Source of the DNA: a bacterium TMED217
GTDB taxonomy: Bacteria > Fidelibacterota > Marinisomatia > Marinisomatales > UBA1611
Reading direction: 5' to 3'
NCBI GenBank assembly: GCA_002169695.1
Contig: NHJO01000004.1
Span: 1 to 32,633 of the forward strand
Length of the DNA stretch: 32,633 bases
Shown: in pieces, positions 2,836-11,999 of the stretch
Layout: each line of letters opens with the position of its first letter
How positions within the stretch are numbered: the first letter of the stretch is position 1
The notes under the pieces: generated by a model
What the model saw: the letters and a program-made list of their open reading frames with translations, nothing else
Told to the model about the DNA's origin: nothing
The model's database searches: none
Made by a program: the position numbers and the translations under genes

Positions 2836-3351
2836 CTAATCTGTAAGGCCTTGACGAATCTCCAAATCTACAATTGGTGCCTGGTTAGGTTCAGTCTCAA
2901 TTTGTACCGTTTTGGTAATGACTGTTGACTTACCATAATTATCAGATACAGTAAGTTCAAACGTATATTCTCCTGGAGTTCCTTCAAAAGAAACAATTCC
3001 AGAACTTGAATTTGGTCTTAGTCTAATTTTGTTCCCACTAAGTTGTTTCCAACTATAACGTATTCTATCTCCTTGGTCAGGATCAAACGAGCTAGTTGCA
3101 TCTAAAATCATAGGAAATGTATTTGTTTCAGGTCTACCATCATGAGGGATTTGGACTTTAAATTTTGTCTTTTCTTCTTGCTCAATACTTTCTAATTCAT
3201 TTATTTGGTCTTGTTTTTGCTGTTGCTGTTGTATTTTTAATTTTACTCTATCCTGGTATAAACGTTCACGTGTCTGACGTTCATACTCTCTCCATCCAAA
3301 GAGACTACAACCAACAATAACGATTAGAAATATAGCAAACCCTCTATTCAT
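2836..3351 (-). CDS. Membrane-anchored PKD-domain protein
   Basis: 171 residues. The N-terminus is a single hydrophobic segment (5-19) after Met-Asn-Arg, which should anchor or export the protein. 'IVGC' ending at Cys15 resembles a lipobox, but a plain membrane anchor is equally possible. Residues 21-65 are charged and Gln-rich (five Gln at 41-45) with coiled-coil character. Residues ~68-152 form a PKD-type beta-sandwich: 'LDATSSFDPDQGD', 'YSWKQLSG', then 'GEYTFELTVSDNYGKS'. The C-terminus 'NQAPIVDLEIRQG' looks like the beginning of a second such domain. It lies 63 bp downstream of the FN3/pseudo-caspase gene on the same strand and is the last gene before a terminator-like palindrome, so it probably shares that operon. 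A periplasmic structural or adaptor role is inferred from domain type only. Confidence 0.8.
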   Translation of the reverse strand: MNRGFAIFLIVIVGCSLFGWREYERQTRERLYQDRVKLKIQQQQQKQDQINELESIEQEEKTKFKVQIPHDGRPETNTFPMILDATSSFDPDQGDRIRYSWKQLSGNKIRLRPNSSSGIVSFEGTPGEYTFELTVSDNYGKSTVITKTVQIETEPNQAPIVDLEIRQGLTD

Positions 3352-3414
3352 AAGCTTAAATATAAATAATTTGTAATAAAATTGTAGTTATAACTTTAAT
3401 TAAAAATAAATATT

Positions 3415-6369
3415 TTATCTCAAATCTAATAATATTCTTTTTAGGTCAGATCCAATGAATTCTGGGTTCTGGATATTCTTATTATCTTCTAAAGTAGATA
3501 ATTCAGGAATTTTTCTATATAAATATTCTGCTAACTCCCCTAACTCAATTTTACTATCTGCACCCATTGCCTCTCCATTTAAGCCCTTAAATAAAAAATA
3601 AGAAAAAACACTATGTTTCATATCATCATTTTCTATTGAATTTTCTCCAGGGGTACAAGCTAATAAAAGGCTAATCTTATCTGATAATTCGGGATAACGA
3701 TAGCCATCTGTAATATCCGAAGGATTAATATATTTTATATCTAATATAAGTGTTATTGAATTAATATTTTGAAGTACAGATAACAATGATAGATTAGTTA
3801 AAATCTCTTCTAATGAACATAAAGAAACTGGCTTTAAAGCATTACCATCCTTAGGAATTAAAAATGGCTTTCCACCAGACCACATACCTAATCCAGAATA
3901 ATAAATATTAATATCAACAAATTCTATATTAGAATATTTACTTGATGAAACAACCCGATTTCGTATTATACCCTGATGTGGATCAAAAATTTTACTAAAA
4001 TCATTTTTTTCAGGACCAGACTCCATTTGCCATGGTTTTGATGGTAATATCTGGTAATCATCTAGACCAAAAGCATTCTGCATATATAGTCTAAATATTC
4101 GACCGTCTCTTTCAGTATATTTTAAACTAGGTAGAGATATATCATCGTACTTATCAATCGCTAATATAACGGCCATGCCATTAGGATTTCTTTTTCCAAT
4201 TGGGACATTTTTTTCTATATCTAACTCTCCTATTTTAACTGGATAGGGGATAACATTTTCAGCGCCAATTTCTTGTAACGCTAACTCACTTTTCGGTCTA
4301 TAATGCTTCATTAATTCAAGATTTATTTGATGCGTCTTTTCATTCTCTAGGTAATCTTTTGTTTTAAATTTTATTGCAAATTGGTCTCTATCACTTTTAA
4401 TCTTTAAATCTATATCACTATACTCACCCGGTTTTAATTCATCTAATTCTAGAAATCCAGTAAAGTCAATTGCTGAATATGTGTGATTTTCTAACAAATT
4501 AAAATCTACTCTTTCTGTTAACCCTTCACCTACATTTTGAATTCGAACTGTAAGATTAACATCTTCATTTTTGGGTATATAATTTGTGCCAAAATTATTT
4601 TCAATTGAATAATCTGCAAGAATGATTTTAGGTTTATCTACCGCTTTAGTATTTAAAGAAAACTCATATGGCTCTTTTGTTTTAAACCCATTTTCATCTT
4701 CTGCTATTATAATATATTTCCAATCCCCTGACTCTATTTTTAAACCAGCTGAAATATCAAATTCAAAATACTTTGCCTCATCAATATTTATATTATCAAT
4801 AATTTTAATCGTATCCATAATTATATCATTAACAATATCACTTATTATTAAAGGTTTAATTGATGCTTTAATATTCTTTGAGGGACTATTCCCATTATTA
4901 ATTAATGCAAATCGCAACTTCCCACTTTCTCGTGCACCAAGTGAATTATTTCCTGTATTATCTAACATTTTAAAATTTTTGATCTGTAAATCTGGAGGTG
5001 TATTTGTTCTGCCACATAAAACATCAGAAAAACCGCTATTATCTCCCTCTGCATCTACTGCTATAATCGTGTAACAATGTTCCTCATCATATCCAAGACT
5101 ATGATGTTTATATGCATTCGACTTTACTTTTTGAATAAATATAGTTGAGTCACTATCTAATTGCTTATATATTTTATATTCGAATGTACCAGGTACATTA
5201 TTCCAACTTAATTGATTTAGTCTAATACCACCGATAACATTTAAGCCACTAGGAGACTTTAGATATAACTTTGAACAATGTTTATCTGATAATTTGCTCT
5301 CTACCTTATATTTATCAATACTAGCTACCTGGTAACAATGTGTTTCTCCTGCCTCACATTCATCTTTATAAGAATTAACCTTAAGGGTCTTTATTAAGGC
5401 CCCATCTCTATAAAGATTATAATCTGTAGCTAAATCAACCTCATTCCAGATAAGATTAATTGAGTTTTCATTATTAAAAGATGATAATGTTGGTGGCTCA
5501 ACATAATCTCTCGTTCGTATTTCATAAGTTTCTGATGTTAAACCTTCAACGCCGCTAGCGCTAATTGAAGATATATTATAATAATAACTTGTTGAGAAAT
5601 CTAAACTATCCTCATCGAACATGGGTTTTACAACATATCCAATAGATTTATTATTTCGCTTTATATTGTACTCAGACGCGCCCTCTACATGGTCCCATTT
5701 AATTGTAATATTATTTTGATTTACTACCCCAGCAATATTTTGAGGGCTCGCTGTCAATCTACTATTACAAGATGGTTCACTCAGAACTCCGGTAATATCA
5801 TACTTTCCAATTGCATTTACTTGATAGCAGTACTTAACACCTGGGTTAACACTTGTATCGATATAAACATTATTTTCGACTACAGCTAAATGCTTATCAT
5901 CTCTGAGTATTTTATATTTTACGGCTTGACCTATGGCTTCCCAACTTAGTTGAATATATCTATCATTAGTCTTTGTACTGATTTTTTTCATACGTAGTGC
6001 TGGATCTTTTTGAATAGGCTTTACATTCGAATAAGTATATATGTATGGTACTTCTTTTTCTTTTTTAAGATTTAATCTAAGAAGTAAATCCCTGTTCCTT
6101 GCTTTTCTTGGGTTAATCTTGATTCTTACAGAGCCATCCTCGGGATGCAACGCAACTAAATAATAATAATCAGGACTTAAATCAGAGAATTCAAAACGAC
6201 CTTTACGATTTGTTTTAACCAAACCAATTTGTGATTCATCAATTGTAAAAAGTTTAACTTCTGCTCTTCTAGATGGCTTTCCCTCATCATTATAAATACT
6301 ACCTGATATTGATACCGTTTTTGAAAAACAAATCTCTATTATTACAAATACAAGTAATATATTTCTCAT
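3415..6369 (-). CDS. Secreted FN3 protein with a degenerate caspase-like domain
   Basis: I chose the ATG at 6369 (984 residues) because it gives a short signal peptide (1-16, 'MRNILLVFVIIEICFS'). A GTG 15 bp upstream at 6384 would give 989. Order of domains: carboxypeptidase-regulatory-like fold (~19-105), four FN3 repeats (~130-457), two CARDB-like beta-sandwiches (~460-575 and 580-688), and a C14 caspase-like domain (~729-980). The caspase fold is recognisable from 'GMAVILAIDKYDD', 'INIYYSG', 'LLLACTPGENS' and 'HSVFSYFLFKGLNG'. The catalytic His of the usual YYSGHG is Leu827 (YYSGLG, codon 3889-3891) and the catalytic Cys of the usual LDAC is Lys879 (LDIK, codon 3733-3735), so peptidase activity is not expected. 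Three FN3 repeats carry cysteine pairs 20 positions apart. It lies 55 bp downstream of the larger paralogue. Its role is unknown; a scaffold or binding function is inferred. Confidence 0.87.
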   Translation of the reverse strand: MRNILLVFVIIEICFSKTVSISGSIYNDEGKPSRRAEVKLFTIDESQIGLVKTNRKGRFEFSDLSPDYYYLVALHPEDGSVRIKINPRKARNRDLLLRLNLKKEKEVPYIYTYSNVKPIQKDPALRMKKISTKTNDRYIQLSWEAIGQAVKYKILRDDKHLAVVENNVYIDTSVNPGVKYCYQVNAIGKYDITGVLSEPSCNSRLTASPQNIAGVVNQNNITIKWDHVEGASEYNIKRNNKSIGYVVKPMFDEDSLDFSTSYYYNISSISASGVEGLTSETYEIRTRDYVEPPTLSSFNNENSINLIWNEVDLATDYNLYRDGALIKTLKVNSYKDECEAGETHCYQVASIDKYKVESKLSDKHCSKLYLKSPSGLNVIGGIRLNQLSWNNVPGTFEYKIYKQLDSDSTIFIQKVKSNAYKHHSLGYDEEHCYTIIAVDAEGDNSGFSDVLCGRTNTPPDLQIKNFKMLDNTGNNSLGARESGKLRFALINNGNSPSKNIKASIKPLIISDIVNDIIMDTIKIIDNINIDEAKYFEFDISAGLKIESGDWKYIIIAEDENGFKTKEPYEFSLNTKAVDKPKIILADYSIENNFGTNYIPKNEDVNLTVRIQNVGEGLTERVDFNLLENHTYSAIDFTGFLELDELKPGEYSDIDLKIKSDRDQFAIKFKTKDYLENEKTHQINLELMKHYRPKSELALQEIGAENVIPYPVKIGELDIEKNVPIGKRNPNGMAVILAIDKYDDISLPSLKYTERDGRIFRLYMQNAFGLDDYQILPSKPWQMESGPEKNDFSKIFDPHQGIIRNRVVSSSKYSNIEFVDINIYYSGLGMWSGGKPFLIPKDGNALKPVSLCSLEEILTNLSLLSVLQNINSITLILDIKYINPSDITDGYRYPELSDKISLLLACTPGENSIENDDMKHSVFSYFLFKGLNGEAMGADSKIELGELAEYLYRKIPELSTLEDNKNIQNPEFIGSDLKRILLDLR

Positions 6370-6424
6370 TGTCTTAATTAACACTGCAATATTATTCTAG
6401 AGTGTCTCTTAGACTTGCCCACAC

Positions 6425-9400
6425 TTACGGTAGGCGTAAAAGAACTCTATCAGGTTTTTCAGTGAAAAGTTGAGGCGTTTGAGGCAAACTTGAGTATAAA
6501 CTTTTGGTTGTATCATGTACATTTTTACGTATATAATTATGTAATTCTTCAACTGTAATGACCTTATCTCCATTGTCAGCATCACCGCGAAGTCCTTTTA
6601 ACATATAATAGGTAAAAATTCCATTATTAGCATCTGGATGATCATATGATTTTTCAGTTGTATTTGCAGCATAAAAGGTAGTTATACCTTTTGGTGGTAT
6701 TAACTCTTTTGGGAAAACCGGGACCACTACTTTTTCAACAACTTTTTCTTTCTTTTTCTTCTTTTTCTTCTTTTTCTTCTTTTTCTTCTTTTTGTCTTCA
6801 ACAACAACTGGTTTAGGAGGTTTTAAATTTTGAGTGAAACCAGAATTATTAAAATCAACATCCATAAAGACAAAAATGTCTCCAATGTTATCAATCTTTT
6901 CAATGTCTTGAAGCATTGAATAAAGATCTTTTATTTTAAAGAATGAATGTATCTTATTTTTATCTGCGTCATATGGTATAATACACTTATCACCAGCAAT
7001 TGTCGTTCCCTCACCAGAATAATATAGCATAAGATCAATTGTATCTATTTTAGAATATTGTGTCACAGATTCTATCTTATCTTTTATAAAACCTAAGTTT
7101 GGATTAAAAATTTCATTAAAATTATTTATTGTAATACCTTCATCAAAAAGCCAGAACTGTGATGGAATCATTTGATGATTTTTTATACCAAATAATTTAT
7201 TATAGTATTCTCTTACTATTTTTACATCTTCTTCAGAAGACTGATTCCCAGGAATTTTTTCTGTCCAGAATTGTTTGTTTCCAATGACAACCCCTATCAT
7301 GTCTCTTGATACATTCACATCTGGAAGATCACTTAATAGTCTGTGATATTCTGGTAGCTGGCCAGGAGGCTTAAAGTCAGACACAGAGGCATCTATCGCT
7401 TCTAAATCTGTTTTGCCTTTATAATGTTTCAGGGTTTCCAAATGAATAGGTATGGTTTTCCTAACATCAAAATAATCATACGTATCGAAATAAACAGTAA
7501 ATCGATCTTCTTTAGCAAGAACTTCGAAGCTATAGTCAAACCAAGCACCTCCTGGAACTAGGCCAAAAGTTTTGATCTCACCAGCATCATTAGTAAACCC
7601 TTCACCTCTTCTAAATGCAAGAACAGCTGTATCCGTTTTTCCTATTGATAAATTTTGAAATCTAACAGTAAGTGTTGTAGTCTCATTTTTTGGTATATAA
7701 TGATGTCCAAATTCATTATCTATTGCAAAATCAGATATTACTAAATTTGGAGGAACAACAGCTAATGTCGGAAAAACAACTTTTTCTGGAGCTAAATCCA
7801 TTCCGGCATACTCATCTATTCTAATATTAAATTTTCTTTCACCAGTCTCAATCTTTAGCTTTGCATATACAGGGAAATTAATTGTGATAGAATCGCCTAC
7901 GCCTAATACTGGTATCGTTGCGATAGTATCTATCACCAAAGATGGTGTATTAGAAAAATCGAGTGACTCAAGCCATGGTTTTAGCTCTCTTGCCGGACTA
8001 CGACCGTCATTAACTATTTTTACTACAATTAATCCTTTTTCTTTTCCATCAAGAATTTGATTGTCAGATTGTTCAACAAAAAATTTCTCAACAAGAGTCA
8101 AATGCGGTGGCGGTAATACCCATCCACACATCACAGGAGATAATGGACCTTCATCTCCATCAGCATCCACAGAAGACATTTTATAACAATATTCTGTATC
8201 AAACTCTAAACCCTTATGAATATAATAATTGCTTGTTGTCTTTGTCATAAACTGAGTCTCACCATTATCTTTATTGTGAGTGTAAATTTTATATTGAACT
8301 GCTCCAAGCATCTGCTTCCATCTAAAAATAACTCTTTTAACATCCCCTGTGAGCGTTAGACCTTTTGGATAGTTTACTAACACCTTATAGCATTCTTCAT
8401 TCGATGAAGGCCCTTCAGTTCCATATGCATCTTTTGCTGTTATTTTATAACAATAAAACTGCCCTGGATCAACGATATCAACATAAAATGTATCGGTAAG
8501 ATCTGCTAACAGAACACCATCTCTGTATACTTTATAGACATGATCTATCCTAAGTGGCAACTGATTCCATGTTAATGTAATTTGCTTCAAATCAGCTGCT
8601 CCTGACATTACTGGGGAAGTAACTTCTTCATGAGTACGACGATTTAATGGTACTAAAGGTCCATCATCACCGTCTTGATCAAAAGAAGCAATTTCATATT
8701 TAAAATCCTTATCATATATAAGATCCTTATCTATATAGAATAGATCTTGAGTAGTTAATATCAACTCACCATCAAGGTATAGATGATAACCACTAACTCC
8801 TTCTACAGATTTCCAAGTAAAACTAACAGTATTTCGCATTACCTCTGCAACGAAATTAGATGGAGGTGCGAACTGACCTTTGCCACACTCTGTTGTAGAC
8901 TGCTCCCCCTCGGTACCATATTGATCTGCAGCTGAAACTGAATAACAATATTCCTTACCAGGCGCTACATTATCAGAGAAGGATGGTTTGTCAAAATCAC
9001 CAAGATAACTACCATTACGGAAAACTTTATAAAAAGTTGCAATGGGTGAAAGATCAGTCCAAGATAGATCAACGGCATTCACATTACCTTGTGCTATTAG
9101 CTCAGGAATTAATACCTCAGGATGTGTATTTACAATAACATCTTCAGACATAGCTCCCTCATCATTATCCGGATCAATCGAGTTAATATTATATTTATAC
9201 TTTTTTCCCCATTCTAATGAATCTATATACGTTAATTCTTCTTGCTTTGAAATAAGAACACTATCACGATATAAAGCATATTTTTCAACGTTTGGTATCG
9301 AAATCCACTCTAATGTAACAATGCGCCCACTACCCTCTGTCTTTAAAGCACCCATTTTTATACTTGGTTTAAGAGTAGGATACTGATATGAAGATTTTTG

Positions 9401-11263
9401 TTTTTGTTTATTTGACTCTGGACCTTCTAAATCATATAAATCCCATGCTCTTACATGATATTCATAAAACTTACCAGGTGCAACATTATCGATATATTTA
9501 GTCTCTTTAATTTTTTCCGCCACAGGTTTATTATTTTTATAAACGGTATACGATTCTGCATGTGGTAATGATTTCCATTTAACGAGGACTCTTTGTACTC
9601 CTCTTTTAGCTGATAATTGTGATCTTAATCCATCAGTAGATAGGTTAATCTTTGTACTCTCATCTTTATTTTTGACTGTCAGATTAACTCCTCCATTACC
9701 AGCATATTCCCCATTATTACCATGACCATTACCAAATACTTTTATACTATACTTGCCAGAAATAATTCTATTTTCAAACGTGAATTTTCCATTGGAGCCA
9801 GCTGTGTACTCTTCCCAAAGAACATTATCAGCAGTATATAAAAACACTTTCGCTTCTTCTATTTTTTGTTGTCCTTTTTCATTTATAAGCTGACCATTAA
9901 TTTTATAAATCTTTGGAGTGCTCTCTTTCACAGGCTCTGACAATGGTCCCTCTAGTCCATCATCAGACAAAGAAGAAATCTCATATGTATACTCAGTTCC
10001 AAAATCTAAATCCTTATCAATATATGTTGTCTTCTTTGAATTAGTAAGTGACTTACCATCTCTATAGATATTATATGAACCAGGGCCATCTATAGCATCC
10101 CAAACAATTGTAATGGTATTCATGTCATCAGAATATTCCTTGCCAAGAGTCAATGTAATCTTTTCAGGCGGAGGATATTGCGCTTTATCACATGCAGGTA
10201 CAGATTGAGGACCCTCTGTACCATATTTATCCACAGCAGAAACAGTAAAACAATTTTCAGAACCTGGATCTGTCTTAGCCGTATACTTTATCGCTTTTGT
10301 AGAATCAATTAATGTCCCGTTCTGATAAATTTTATACTTAACTGCTAAATCATGTTTTGTCCACTCTAAATCAACAATACTCTCACCAGCTTCAGCTTTT
10401 ATTTTCTTAATTTTTTTAACTTCTTTATGCGTAGTAACCGACTTGGAACTAGATTTTGGTCCTTCTTCTTGATGATGATCAATCGTCACAACCATATACG
10501 AATAGTCTTCATTATATTTTAACTTATAATCTGAATATTCTTGATCAGTAGTTGTATTGATAAGGTCATCATCACGATAAACATTATAGCTACTTGCATT
10601 TTCAACCTTATCCCAAGTCAATGTAATAGCATTCTTCTTAGCTTTTCCATTTATTTTTGCAGGAGACTTTAATAAAGCTTTACCATATTCAGTTAAAGAC
10701 CTTGTTCCTTTCTCACCATTATTATCAGTTATCGTGATATTATAAGCATAAGATTTTCCGCCTGAGACTTTATCATTGTAAGTTGTTTTGGATGTTTTAG
10801 TAAGCTCTGTATTATCTCGGAAAATAATATATTCTGCCGCATTTTTTATCGGCTCCCACTTTAAAACGACTGTGCCAACTTCTGAATCAACAGTAAGCTG
10901 AGGCTGTTTGTCATCTTGGCTTGTAATAACCTCAAGCTTTGATACAGATGCAGATCTAAGATCAATTTCTTTTGTAGCAGAGTTCCCGCCTGCACCATAA
11001 ATATTGAGAGTGTATTTATCAGGCTTTATTTTTTTAAATTTAAATTTACCATTGCCTTTTGTTCTCTCTGTCTTTACAAGCTGATGTTTTTTAGAATACA
11101 ATGTGAGTCTAGCACCTGAAACTTTCTTACCACTCTCATCTTTAATAACACCAGATATATCATATGTCTGTCCTGTTATAATGTTAAAAACAGCCAACAT
11201 TATAACTATAGTTTTAGAAAAAGTAACTTTTGAGCGTAAGAAGCCCTTTACATCATTAGACAT
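6425..11263 (-). CDS. Giant secreted FN3 protein with a degenerate caspase-like domain
   Basis: 1612 residues starting at an ATG. A hydrophobic export segment is at 17-30. Order of domains: regulatory-like fold (~34-112), four FN3 repeats (~119-450), a second regulatory-like fold (~452-545), six more FN3 repeats (~548-1050), two CARDB-like domains (~1054-1170 and 1172-1285) and a caspase-like domain (~1320-1608). The FN3 repeats share a 'YKVYRDGVLL'-type strand and an 'AxDxYGTEGP'-type hairpin. In the caspase domain the His position is Glu1418 (YYSGEG, codon 7010-7012) and the Cys position is Asp1470 (MDVD, codon 6854-6856), so it should be catalytically dead. A 15-lysine tract (1491-1505) sits between the two halves of the caspase domain. 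The protein is paralogous to the gene downstream and probably co-transcribed with it. Its function is unknown; a surface or periplasmic location is inferred. Confidence 0.87.
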   Translation of the reverse strand: MSNDVKGFLRSKVTFSKTIVIMLAVFNIITGQTYDISGVIKDESGKKVSGARLTLYSKKHQLVKTERTKGNGKFKFKKIKPDKYTLNIYGAGGNSATKEIDLRSASVSKLEVITSQDDKQPQLTVDSEVGTVVLKWEPIKNAAEYIIFRDNTELTKTSKTTYNDKVSGGKSYAYNITITDNNGEKGTRSLTEYGKALLKSPAKINGKAKKNAITLTWDKVENASSYNVYRDDDLINTTTDQEYSDYKLKYNEDYSYMVVTIDHHQEEGPKSSSKSVTTHKEVKKIKKIKAEAGESIVDLEWTKHDLAVKYKIYQNGTLIDSTKAIKYTAKTDPGSENCFTVSAVDKYGTEGPQSVPACDKAQYPPPEKITLTLGKEYSDDMNTITIVWDAIDGPGSYNIYRDGKSLTNSKKTTYIDKDLDFGTEYTYEISSLSDDGLEGPLSEPVKESTPKIYKINGQLINEKGQQKIEEAKVFLYTADNVLWEEYTAGSNGKFTFENRIISGKYSIKVFGNGHGNNGEYAGNGGVNLTVKNKDESTKINLSTDGLRSQLSAKRGVQRVLVKWKSLPHAESYTVYKNNKPVAEKIKETKYIDNVAPGKFYEYHVRAWDLYDLEGPESNKQKQKSSYQYPTLKPSIKMGALKTEGSGRIVTLEWISIPNVEKYALYRDSVLISKQEELTYIDSLEWGKKYKYNINSIDPDNDEGAMSEDVIVNTHPEVLIPELIAQGNVNAVDLSWTDLSPIATFYKVFRNGSYLGDFDKPSFSDNVAPGKEYCYSVSAADQYGTEGEQSTTECGKGQFAPPSNFVAEVMRNTVSFTWKSVEGVSGYHLYLDGELILTTQDLFYIDKDLIYDKDFKYEIASFDQDGDDGPLVPLNRRTHEEVTSPVMSGAADLKQITLTWNQLPLRIDHVYKVYRDGVLLADLTDTFYVDIVDPGQFYCYKITAKDAYGTEGPSSNEECYKVLVNYPKGLTLTGDVKRVIFRWKQMLGAVQYKIYTHNKDNGETQFMTKTTSNYYIHKGLEFDTEYCYKMSSVDADGDEGPLSPVMCGWVLPPPHLTLVEKFFVEQSDNQILDGKEKGLIVVKIVNDGRSPARELKPWLESLDFSNTPSLVIDTIATIPVLGVGDSITINFPVYAKLKIETGERKFNIRIDEYAGMDLAPEKVVFPTLAVVPPNLVISDFAIDNEFGHHYIPKNETTTLTVRFQNLSIGKTDTAVLAFRRGEGFTNDAGEIKTFGLVPGGAWFDYSFEVLAKEDRFTVYFDTYDYFDVRKTIPIHLETLKHYKGKTDLEAIDASVSDFKPPGQLPEYHRLLSDLPDVNVSRDMIGVVIGNKQFWTEKIPGNQSSEEDVKIVREYYNKLFGIKNHQMIPSQFWLFDEGITINNFNEIFNPNLGFIKDKIESVTQYSKIDTIDLMLYYSGEGTTIAGDKCIIPYDADKNKIHSFFKIKDLYSMLQDIEKIDNIGDIFVFMDVDFNNSGFTQNLKPPKPVVVEDKKKKKKKKKKKKKKKEKVVEKVVVPVFPKELIPPKGITTFYAANTTEKSYDHPDANNGIFTYYMLKGLRGDADNGDKVITVEELHNYIRKNVHDTTKSLYSSLPQTPQLFTEKPDRVLLRLP
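6749..6793 (-). repeat. In-frame 9-bp tandem repeat encoding poly-lysine
   Basis: About five copies of a 9-bp unit (plus strand CTTTTTCTT, with edge variation) encode Lys1491-Lys1505 of the giant FN3/pseudo-caspase protein. Because the unit is a multiple of three, gain or loss of copies would change tract length without shifting the frame. Confidence 0.85.
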
Positions 11264-11330
11264 TTTTTATTCAATACTTTTTTATATTATTATTCCAACT
11301 CGAAGCATTTTACCTCGGATTTTGGACTCC

Positions 11331-11383
11331 GCTTTTTTAACTCATTTGCAACGATTAATACGTTGCTTGGCAAGTTAAAAAGC
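11331..11383. repeat. Imperfect inverted repeat upstream of the giant FN3 gene
   Basis: Inner arms GCAACG (11348-11353) and CGTTGC (11361-11366) pair perfectly around a 7-nt loop. Outer arms GCTTTTTTAACT (11331-11342) and AGTTAAAAAGC (11373-11383) pair with one bulge. No U-tract follows on either strand, so it is not a standard intrinsic terminator. It lies between the DUF3228 stop and the giant gene's start and could form a structured 5' leader. The rest of the 169-bp gap (11264-11432) is AT-rich with nothing else recognised. Confidence 0.55.
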
Positions 11384-11432
11384 TAATTAATTAAATACAA
11401 GGTTTTCAGGATATATATATTTCTTTATATTT

Positions 11433-11999
11433 TTAAATATTTGAGGGTTCTATAGCAGCATATTTTTGCCAAAATTGAACTGAATCAGCCCATTCTTCAG
11501 ATGTATAAGATGCTTGAGTGCCACCATTCAGATTTAATTGATTCCTCATCATGGTAATAGGGCCAATTGGCATTTTATCTACTCCCTCAGGAAGAGCGTT
11601 AATACTAATTAATTCCCACTCTGCGTTTGTTGTATTCTCATTATTCTCAGCTAAGACATCATGCCGATATAATATTAATTGCACAGAACCTGCTGTCAAT
11701 GGAGTCCCATTTAATGCTCGTACTTGTATATATGGATCTTCACCGACCCTTCGTATTACTTGTTTTGCTATTAATTTGATATCACTTGTTATTTTAACAT
11801 AAGGGCAAAATACTTTTTCAACGTAATCTTGATCAAGATTGACAATCCGAACCCCATCTCTATAACCATTAATAAAATCATTCCTATTCATTTTTTGTTC
11901 AGCATGTTTCGCAAAAAAATCAAATGATAAACTCTTAGAATATGTCTTCCCTGAATCCTGGGTTTGCCTTCTAACGAAATTATTTACTGCAACTTTCAT
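11433..11999 (-). CDS. DUF3228 family protein
   Basis: 188 residues, close to the ~190 usual for DUF3228. Recognisable family features are an N-terminal 'VNNFVRRQ', a central 'YRDGVRIV', the block 'VQLILYRHDVLAEN' followed by 'EWELISINALPEG', and the near C-terminal 'PITMMRNQLNLNGGT' and 'YTSEEWADSVQFWQKYA'. There is no signal peptide or membrane segment, so it should be cytoplasmic. The biochemical function of the family is not known to me. The gene starts with ATG and is divergent from the DUF92 fusion gene, with a 70-bp intergenic region. It is upstream of the giant FN3 gene on the same strand, but the 169-bp gap with a large inverted repeat argues for separate transcription. Confidence 0.88.
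   Translation of the reverse strand: MKVAVNNFVRRQTQDSGKTYSKSLSFDFFAKHAEQKMNRNDFINGYRDGVRIVNLDQDYVEKVFCPYVKITSDIKLIAKQVIRRVGEDPYIQVRALNGTPLTAGSVQLILYRHDVLAENNENTTNAEWELISINALPEGVDKMPIGPITMMRNQLNLNGGTQASYTSEEWADSVQFWQKYAAIEPSNI

Follow-up and report, generated by a model that had tools for sequence, protein, structure and literature searches.

A conserved operon with a tandem pair of exported, dyad-less caspase-fold proteins in a family of Neomarinimicrobiota

Two large neighbouring proteins of a marine bacterium, here called A and B, both end in a caspase-like (peptidase C14) domain in which the two catalytic residues have been replaced. With a probability of about one half, we take A and B to be dead, exported descendants of CARDB-C14 proteins (orthocaspases) that would serve as non-catalytic binding modules of a membrane-anchored complex. 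At the level of sequence, their common origin, the loss of both dyads, purifying selection, conserved synteny, hydrophobic N-terminal segments and the absence of a T9SS tail are established, and we infer that the C14 fold may now bind rather than cut. The class of pseudo-orthocaspases is already known; what is new is an exported FN3 pair with a conserved Glu/Asp site.

The window, i.e., the whole stretch of 32,633 nucleotides that was analysed, is contig 23 of a Neomarinimicrobiota MAG of 1.1 Mb that is 64% complete, and the nearest named relatives of gene A are Candidatus Neomarinimicrobiota MAGs. All genes, codons and RNA elements of the window given below by position are on the minus strand. 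Gene A (6425-11263) encodes 1612 amino acids with an N-terminal hydrophobic signal, carboxypeptidase-regulatory-like domains, about 10 FN3-like repeats, CARDB-like domains and the C-terminal pseudo-C14 domain. Gene B (3415-6369) encodes 984 amino acids with a signal peptide, a carboxypeptidase-regulatory-like domain, 4 FN3-like repeats (in both proteins the repeats were counted by eye), CARDB-like domains and, again, a C-terminal pseudo-C14 domain. The open reading frame of B extends over 3415-6384, and the start is most likely the ATG at 6369, where the signal peptide begins; with this start, the gaps become 55 bp between A and B and 63 bp between B and the third gene, C (2836-3351). The 171 amino acids encoded by C consist of one N-terminal membrane helix, for which the hydropathy within the first 50 residues is at least 2.42 in 26 of 26 orthologues, and a PKD domain (PF22352, E = 1.8e-9). 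Both A and B have a hydrophobic N-terminal segment; one A orthologue scores low, and its start may be wrong. A gene for a ROK-family kinase (1792-2754; PF00480, E = 6.8e-55) starts 81 bp past C, compared with 5-6 bp in relatives, and is the probable end of the operon. Directly upstream of A, on the same strand, is a DUF3228 gene (11433-11999), a neighbour that is conserved in relatives, and beyond it follows a divergent DUF92 gene. In the list of open reading frames, A, B and C are all intact. A sequence-only reading of this DNA had described a three-gene operon of exported proteins built around two paralogous pseudo-caspases, and the shared strand, the two gaps and the PKD domain of C were found as it had stated.

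The assignment of the C-termini to the C14 fold is direct for A, where residues ~1310-1612 (6428-7336) match Pfam PF00656 with E = 5.6e-10, over the cut-off. The B protein of the window gives no Pfam C14 match when taken alone; 9 of its 23 orthologues do match, and the B profile can be aligned over its full length to active CARDB-C14 proteins (hhalign, 5e-60). AF2 models place a caspase fold at both C-termini, with pLDDT values of 76 for A and 83 for B, and the best caspase match of both models in Foldseek is the MALT1 caspase domain (PDB 3v4o), with TM scores by target of 0.60 and 0.64, respectively. When relatives with a solved structure were sought by sequence, none were found. MALT1 is an active eukaryotic cytosolic protease, and the likeness of A and B to this paracaspase is at the level of the fold only. 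Both proteins thus have the p20/p10 fold of the peptidase C14 and orthocaspase group, and both lack the His-Cys dyad of its active members (the two residues are Glu and Asp in A, Leu and Lys in B), which places them among the pseudo-orthocaspases, i.e., proteins with a p20 domain in which the dyad is substituted. They are paralogous to each other, with 28% identity over 911 amino acids (E = 8e-113), nearly all of B. With the FN3-like repeats visible in both, the picture of two large paralogous FN3 proteins, each with a C14-type C-terminus that has lost its dyad, is therefore upheld. A candidate identity of A and B as T9SS surface cargo was discarded on account of the missing tail: neither A, B nor C matches Por_Secre_tail (TIGR04183) in NCBIfam, while the genome has 37 such matches, and A and B are therefore probably not exported by this route.

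The two dead sites have had different fates. In A, the position of the catalytic His is taken by E1418 (YYSGEGTT, 7010-7012) and that of the catalytic Cys by D1470 (FMDVDFNN, 6854-6856), and all 21 A orthologues have Glu and Asp at these positions. Of the 16 positions in the two former catalytic loops of A, 13 are invariant, versus 50 of 276 in the remainder of the domain (P = 2.5e-7); the segments GEGTT and MDVDFNN remain nearly unchanged across deep divergence. At the first position of the S1 pocket, A has Asn in 16 and Asp in 5 of the 21 orthologues; the second pocket Asp is present in every one of them and, more generally, in all 64 aligned A, B and comparison proteins. Between the window and members of its genus, dN is about 0.09 in the FN3, CARDB and C14 parts of A alike; dS is saturated, and dN/dS is about 0.03 where it can be computed. 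A thus has the look of a protein that makes use of its rebuilt site. Since the dead cutting site has, by these alignments, been rebuilt as an invariant acidic pair, the fold of A has probably passed from a cutting to a binding role, and the Glu/Asp pair, situated beside the old pocket Asp, could form an acidic cleft for a cation, a basic ligand or a protein partner.

In B, the dyad positions drift while the pocket is kept. The position of the His is occupied by L827 (YYSGLGMW, 3889-3891; Leu in 12 and Tyr in 11 B orthologues) and that of the Cys by K879 (LDIKY, 3733-3735; Thr in 13, Lys in 8 and Arg in 2). D755 (4105-4107), in contrast, corresponds to the first S1-pocket Asp of active orthocaspases, in the RD motif, and is Asp in all 23 B orthologues as well as in all 20 proteins of the comparison set; the two Asp residues of the Arg/Lys-binding pocket, D755 and D877, and the p10 Ser are together retained in 23 of 23 orthologues. 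As the two Asp residues that hold Arg or Lys in active orthocaspases are kept, B could bind a basic side chain, or a loop that carries one, without cleavage, and it looks like a protein whose pocket, rather than dyad, is in use. The catalytic loops of B are not enriched in invariant positions (2 of 17, versus 32 of 238 elsewhere in the domain), and from this follows that the C14 part of B may be only structural. For B, dN is 0.25-0.36 between the window and members of the genus, with dN/dS of 0.12-0.24, a rough estimate since dS is high.

These observations bear on the alternative that survives best, namely that A and B are adhesin- or scaffold-like stalks whose function resides in the FN3 repeats, with the C14 domain retained from the ancestor only as a folding cap and the dead site idle. 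FN3 and CARDB domains do make up most of each protein, and the drifting dyad and unremarkable loops of B are what an idle cap would give. An idle site does not, however, lead one to expect that conservation within the C14 domain of A peaks at the dead loops, where the Glu/Asp pair is invariant, nor that B retains both pocket Asp residues and the p10 Ser in every orthologue, and we regard a purely stalk-like role as a possible but clearly less favoured account. A non-enzymatic role of the fold, as the sequence-only reading had proposed, is the simplest interpretation of two pseudo-caspases that are both under purifying selection.

If A and B are binding modules, their arrangement can be pictured as follows. 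Both duplicates would be retained as obligate neighbours in an envelope operon together with C and, as a rule, a ROK kinase; several genera add an LPP20 lipoprotein. The long, Ig-like FN3/CARDB stalks would space the C14 heads outside the inner membrane, and the complex would be anchored by C, which sits in the inner membrane, and, where present, by the outer-membrane-type lipoprotein. How the heads might meet is suggested by the p20-p10 linker of A, which in the window contains a poly-lysine stretch (K1491-K1505, 6749-6793) that is disordered in the model. The linker is Lys-rich in 19 of 21 A orthologues, with a longest run of 4-17 residues and mixed AAA and AAG codons. Because active orthocaspases cleave after basic residues (PMC6426788), the loop of A is Lys-rich and the pocket of B is retained, it may be guessed that the basic-binding pocket of B grips the loop of A as a non-cleaving clasp. 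Co-variation does not support this guess, since in one genus (g2) the Lys tract is missing from A and the pocket is still retained in B. A more far-reaching proposal, which we regard as tentative and rather doubtful, is that the His-Cys dyad of A has become a Glu-Asp site for a metal, a ligand or a new catalysis while B has kept the pocket without the dyad, so that one protease would have been split into two complementary, non-proteolytic envelope modules.

The gene order is conserved in relatives. In every locus of the same family that is long enough, B comes next after A, with gaps of 2-60 bp and one of 202 bp (where this gap is negative, the cause is an alternative start call or a contig edge). 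After B comes C, either directly or, in several genera, via an inserted gene X of about 440 amino acids, in one case with a gap of 242 bp that results from a stop in the 5' part of X. The order A-B-(X)-C is thus held in every locus that reaches, with spacings of 2-242 bp overall, and almost all loci with sufficient sequence have the ROK kinase after C, at 5-77 bp when adjacent. X is an LPP20-family lipoprotein, with PF02169 in 7 of 8 members and an invariant lipobox Cys at alignment position 18; the operon of the window's own genus does not include it. A CsgG/LpoB-like protein, Y, is also found after C in two genomes of one genus. That A, B and C remain neighbours is accordingly confirmed across the bacterial family. 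Relatives in which the three genes lie apart, which would have refuted the sequence-only reading, were looked for and did not turn up. The description as a three-gene operon stands for the A-B-C order and falls short in extent: the unit is larger, because the ROK gene usually follows and the lipoprotein gene lies between B and C in several genera, and DUF3228 is found upstream. X was also considered as a homologue of the DUF4384 partner of active C14 operons and rejected, with an hhalign probability of 6.7%. Clusters of several LPP20-family lipoprotein paralogues were seen at four further loci (L117, L118, L119 and L120), two of which (L118 and L119) also have a CsgG-like gene that matches Y.

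Upstream of A is a conserved leader of 121 nt (11285-11405) with nested helices and, in the window's genus, a strong predicted fold (RNA fold z = -3.3). The leader is conserved at three other loci (L053, L055 and L073), occurs as a single copy in the genome and has no match in Rfam. In other genera, only a weak 5-pair hairpin and a conserved CCGAGGTAA ribosome-binding segment are found. A function as cis-regulatory RNA is possible. The terminator that had been suggested after C was not borne out: the 18-bp AT-rich palindrome at 2816-2833 has no loop and only 2 G-C pairs, is not called by a terminator scan, does not fold stably (z = -0.38) and is not conserved.

A tree of 64 C-terminal halves places A and B together in one clade against 20 CARDB-C14 relatives, with 100/100 support; each of the two is a clade of its own, and the sister group of A+B consists of active CARDB-caspase proteases from the same phylum with the motifs YYxGHG and DACFSG. 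From this single clade beside active proteases it follows that A and B arose by duplication of one C14 protein, and in the sequence tree this duplication precedes the radiation of the bacterial family. The tree is compatible with a single loss of catalysis ahead of the duplication as well as with two separate losses following it. Among 245 searched genomes of the phylum, the A/B pair was confined to one bacterial family, bar one short contig; the relatives in the rest of the phylum are CARDB-C14 proteins that have YYxGHG and DACFSG intact. The exception, a 3.7 kb contig binned to another family, was considered as a case of transfer, which is disfavoured: it is 88% identical to the A of the window and probably misbinned. 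In the comparison set of 20 CARDB-C14 proteins, the catalytic His is present in 19 and the Cys in all. The one exception (L037:4225-7074) has Lys at the His position with the Cys kept, which makes it an additional, independent case of partial dyad loss.

The active CARDB-C14 proteases of Neomarinimicrobiota (e.g., L104:7716-11033 and L034:2919-5729) resemble A and B in having the same CARDB-C14 C-terminal half, in being exported and in sometimes occurring in tandem. They differ in having an intact dyad (YYxGHG/DACFSG) and in often lying beside a small lipoprotein and a DUF4384 protein rather than PKD and ROK genes, and a Lys-rich linker was not seen in them. At five loci from other families of the phylum (L104 to L108), an active CARDB-C14 protease shares an operon with a DUF4384 protein and a small lipoprotein that contains LATADYV or LATTDYV. 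Paired CARDB-C14 proteases with intact dyads were also observed within the family of the window, adjacent at one locus (L034:2919-8665) and two genes apart at another (L035:3-6659).

The presence of active relatives raises the question whether A and B serve as decoys in the regulation of an active orthocaspase whose gene lies elsewhere in the genome, which was one of the roles that the sequence-only reading had put forward. A known example of this kind is cFLIP, a dead caspase paralogue that regulates an active caspase (caspase-8), and A and B are like cFLIP-type pseudo-caspases in being dead paralogues that are retained in what would be a non-enzymatic role. Five genomes of the family (G007, G008, G019, G025 and G026) do have active CARDB-C14 paralogues; these copies are, however, unlinked to the A-B operon, and three near-complete genomes (G009, G014 and G023) have no C14 protein beyond A and B. 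Neither in the window's own genome (64% complete) nor in its genus, with genomes up to 92% and 93% complete, was an active partner or any C14 gene other than A and B found, and control of an active caspase is therefore disfavoured; unlike the case of cFLIP, no active caspase to control was found in the genus. We consider decoys improbable, and the earlier interpretation as a whole is thus supported in part, for the lasting neighbourhood of the three genes and for the non-enzymatic role.

Equally hard to credit is that A has become an enzyme again, with the Glu/Asp pair as a re-invented catalytic site, e.g., for carboxylate-based or metal-dependent hydrolysis, on a caspase scaffold. Acidic residues at both catalytic positions within the nearly invariant GEGTT and MDVDFNN segments would fit such a site, while B is without one, and a limited literature search found no precedent. 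That the genes are an assembly artefact or pseudogenes of a MAG that is 64% complete is already refuted for all practical purposes by strong purifying selection and by the same intact genes in the same order in more than 20 independent genomes.

Bacterial pseudo-orthocaspases have been described before, and the statement that no system of this form is known holds only for the dyads and the architecture seen here. Among 9,994 bacterial orthocaspases, 858 lack the dyad, and 90% of these are from Alphaproteobacteria and Cyanobacteria (PMC6426788). The dyads reported are YS, YN, YA, YG, FS, QC and HA (Klemencic et al. 2019, PMC6426788), compared with E/D in A and L or Y with T, K or R in B. Like the known cases (PMC6426788, PMC7889975), A and B combine a C14/p20 fold, replacement of both catalytic residues and a conserved clade. 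The cyanobacterial pseudo-forms keep two acidic pocket residues (PMC6426788), as B does, while A keeps one, with the other as Asn in 16 and Asp in 5 orthologues. In contrast to the described proteins, those studied here form a tandem pair with a C-terminal C14 domain, an FN3/CARDB stalk, p10 present and an operon of their own. To exemplify what a pseudo-orthocaspase may do, knock-out of SyOC leads to higher tolerance of oxidative stress (PMC7889975). In the same limited search, no paper on C14 proteins in Neomarinimicrobiota was found; for caspases together with LPP20 or CsgG there was none, together with Marinimicrobia only unrelated ones, and together with CARDB nothing relevant.

So far, pseudo-caspases of bacteria have mostly been described from cyanobacteria and alphaproteobacteria, as scattered losses. 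In the present case, strong selection maintains a linked pair throughout a marine family of Neomarinimicrobiota, and in A the dead site is more conserved than the rest of the domain. The role of a caspase fold without catalysis can therefore be tested on two natural variants, one in which the pocket is kept (B) and one in which the dyad appears to have been rebuilt (A).
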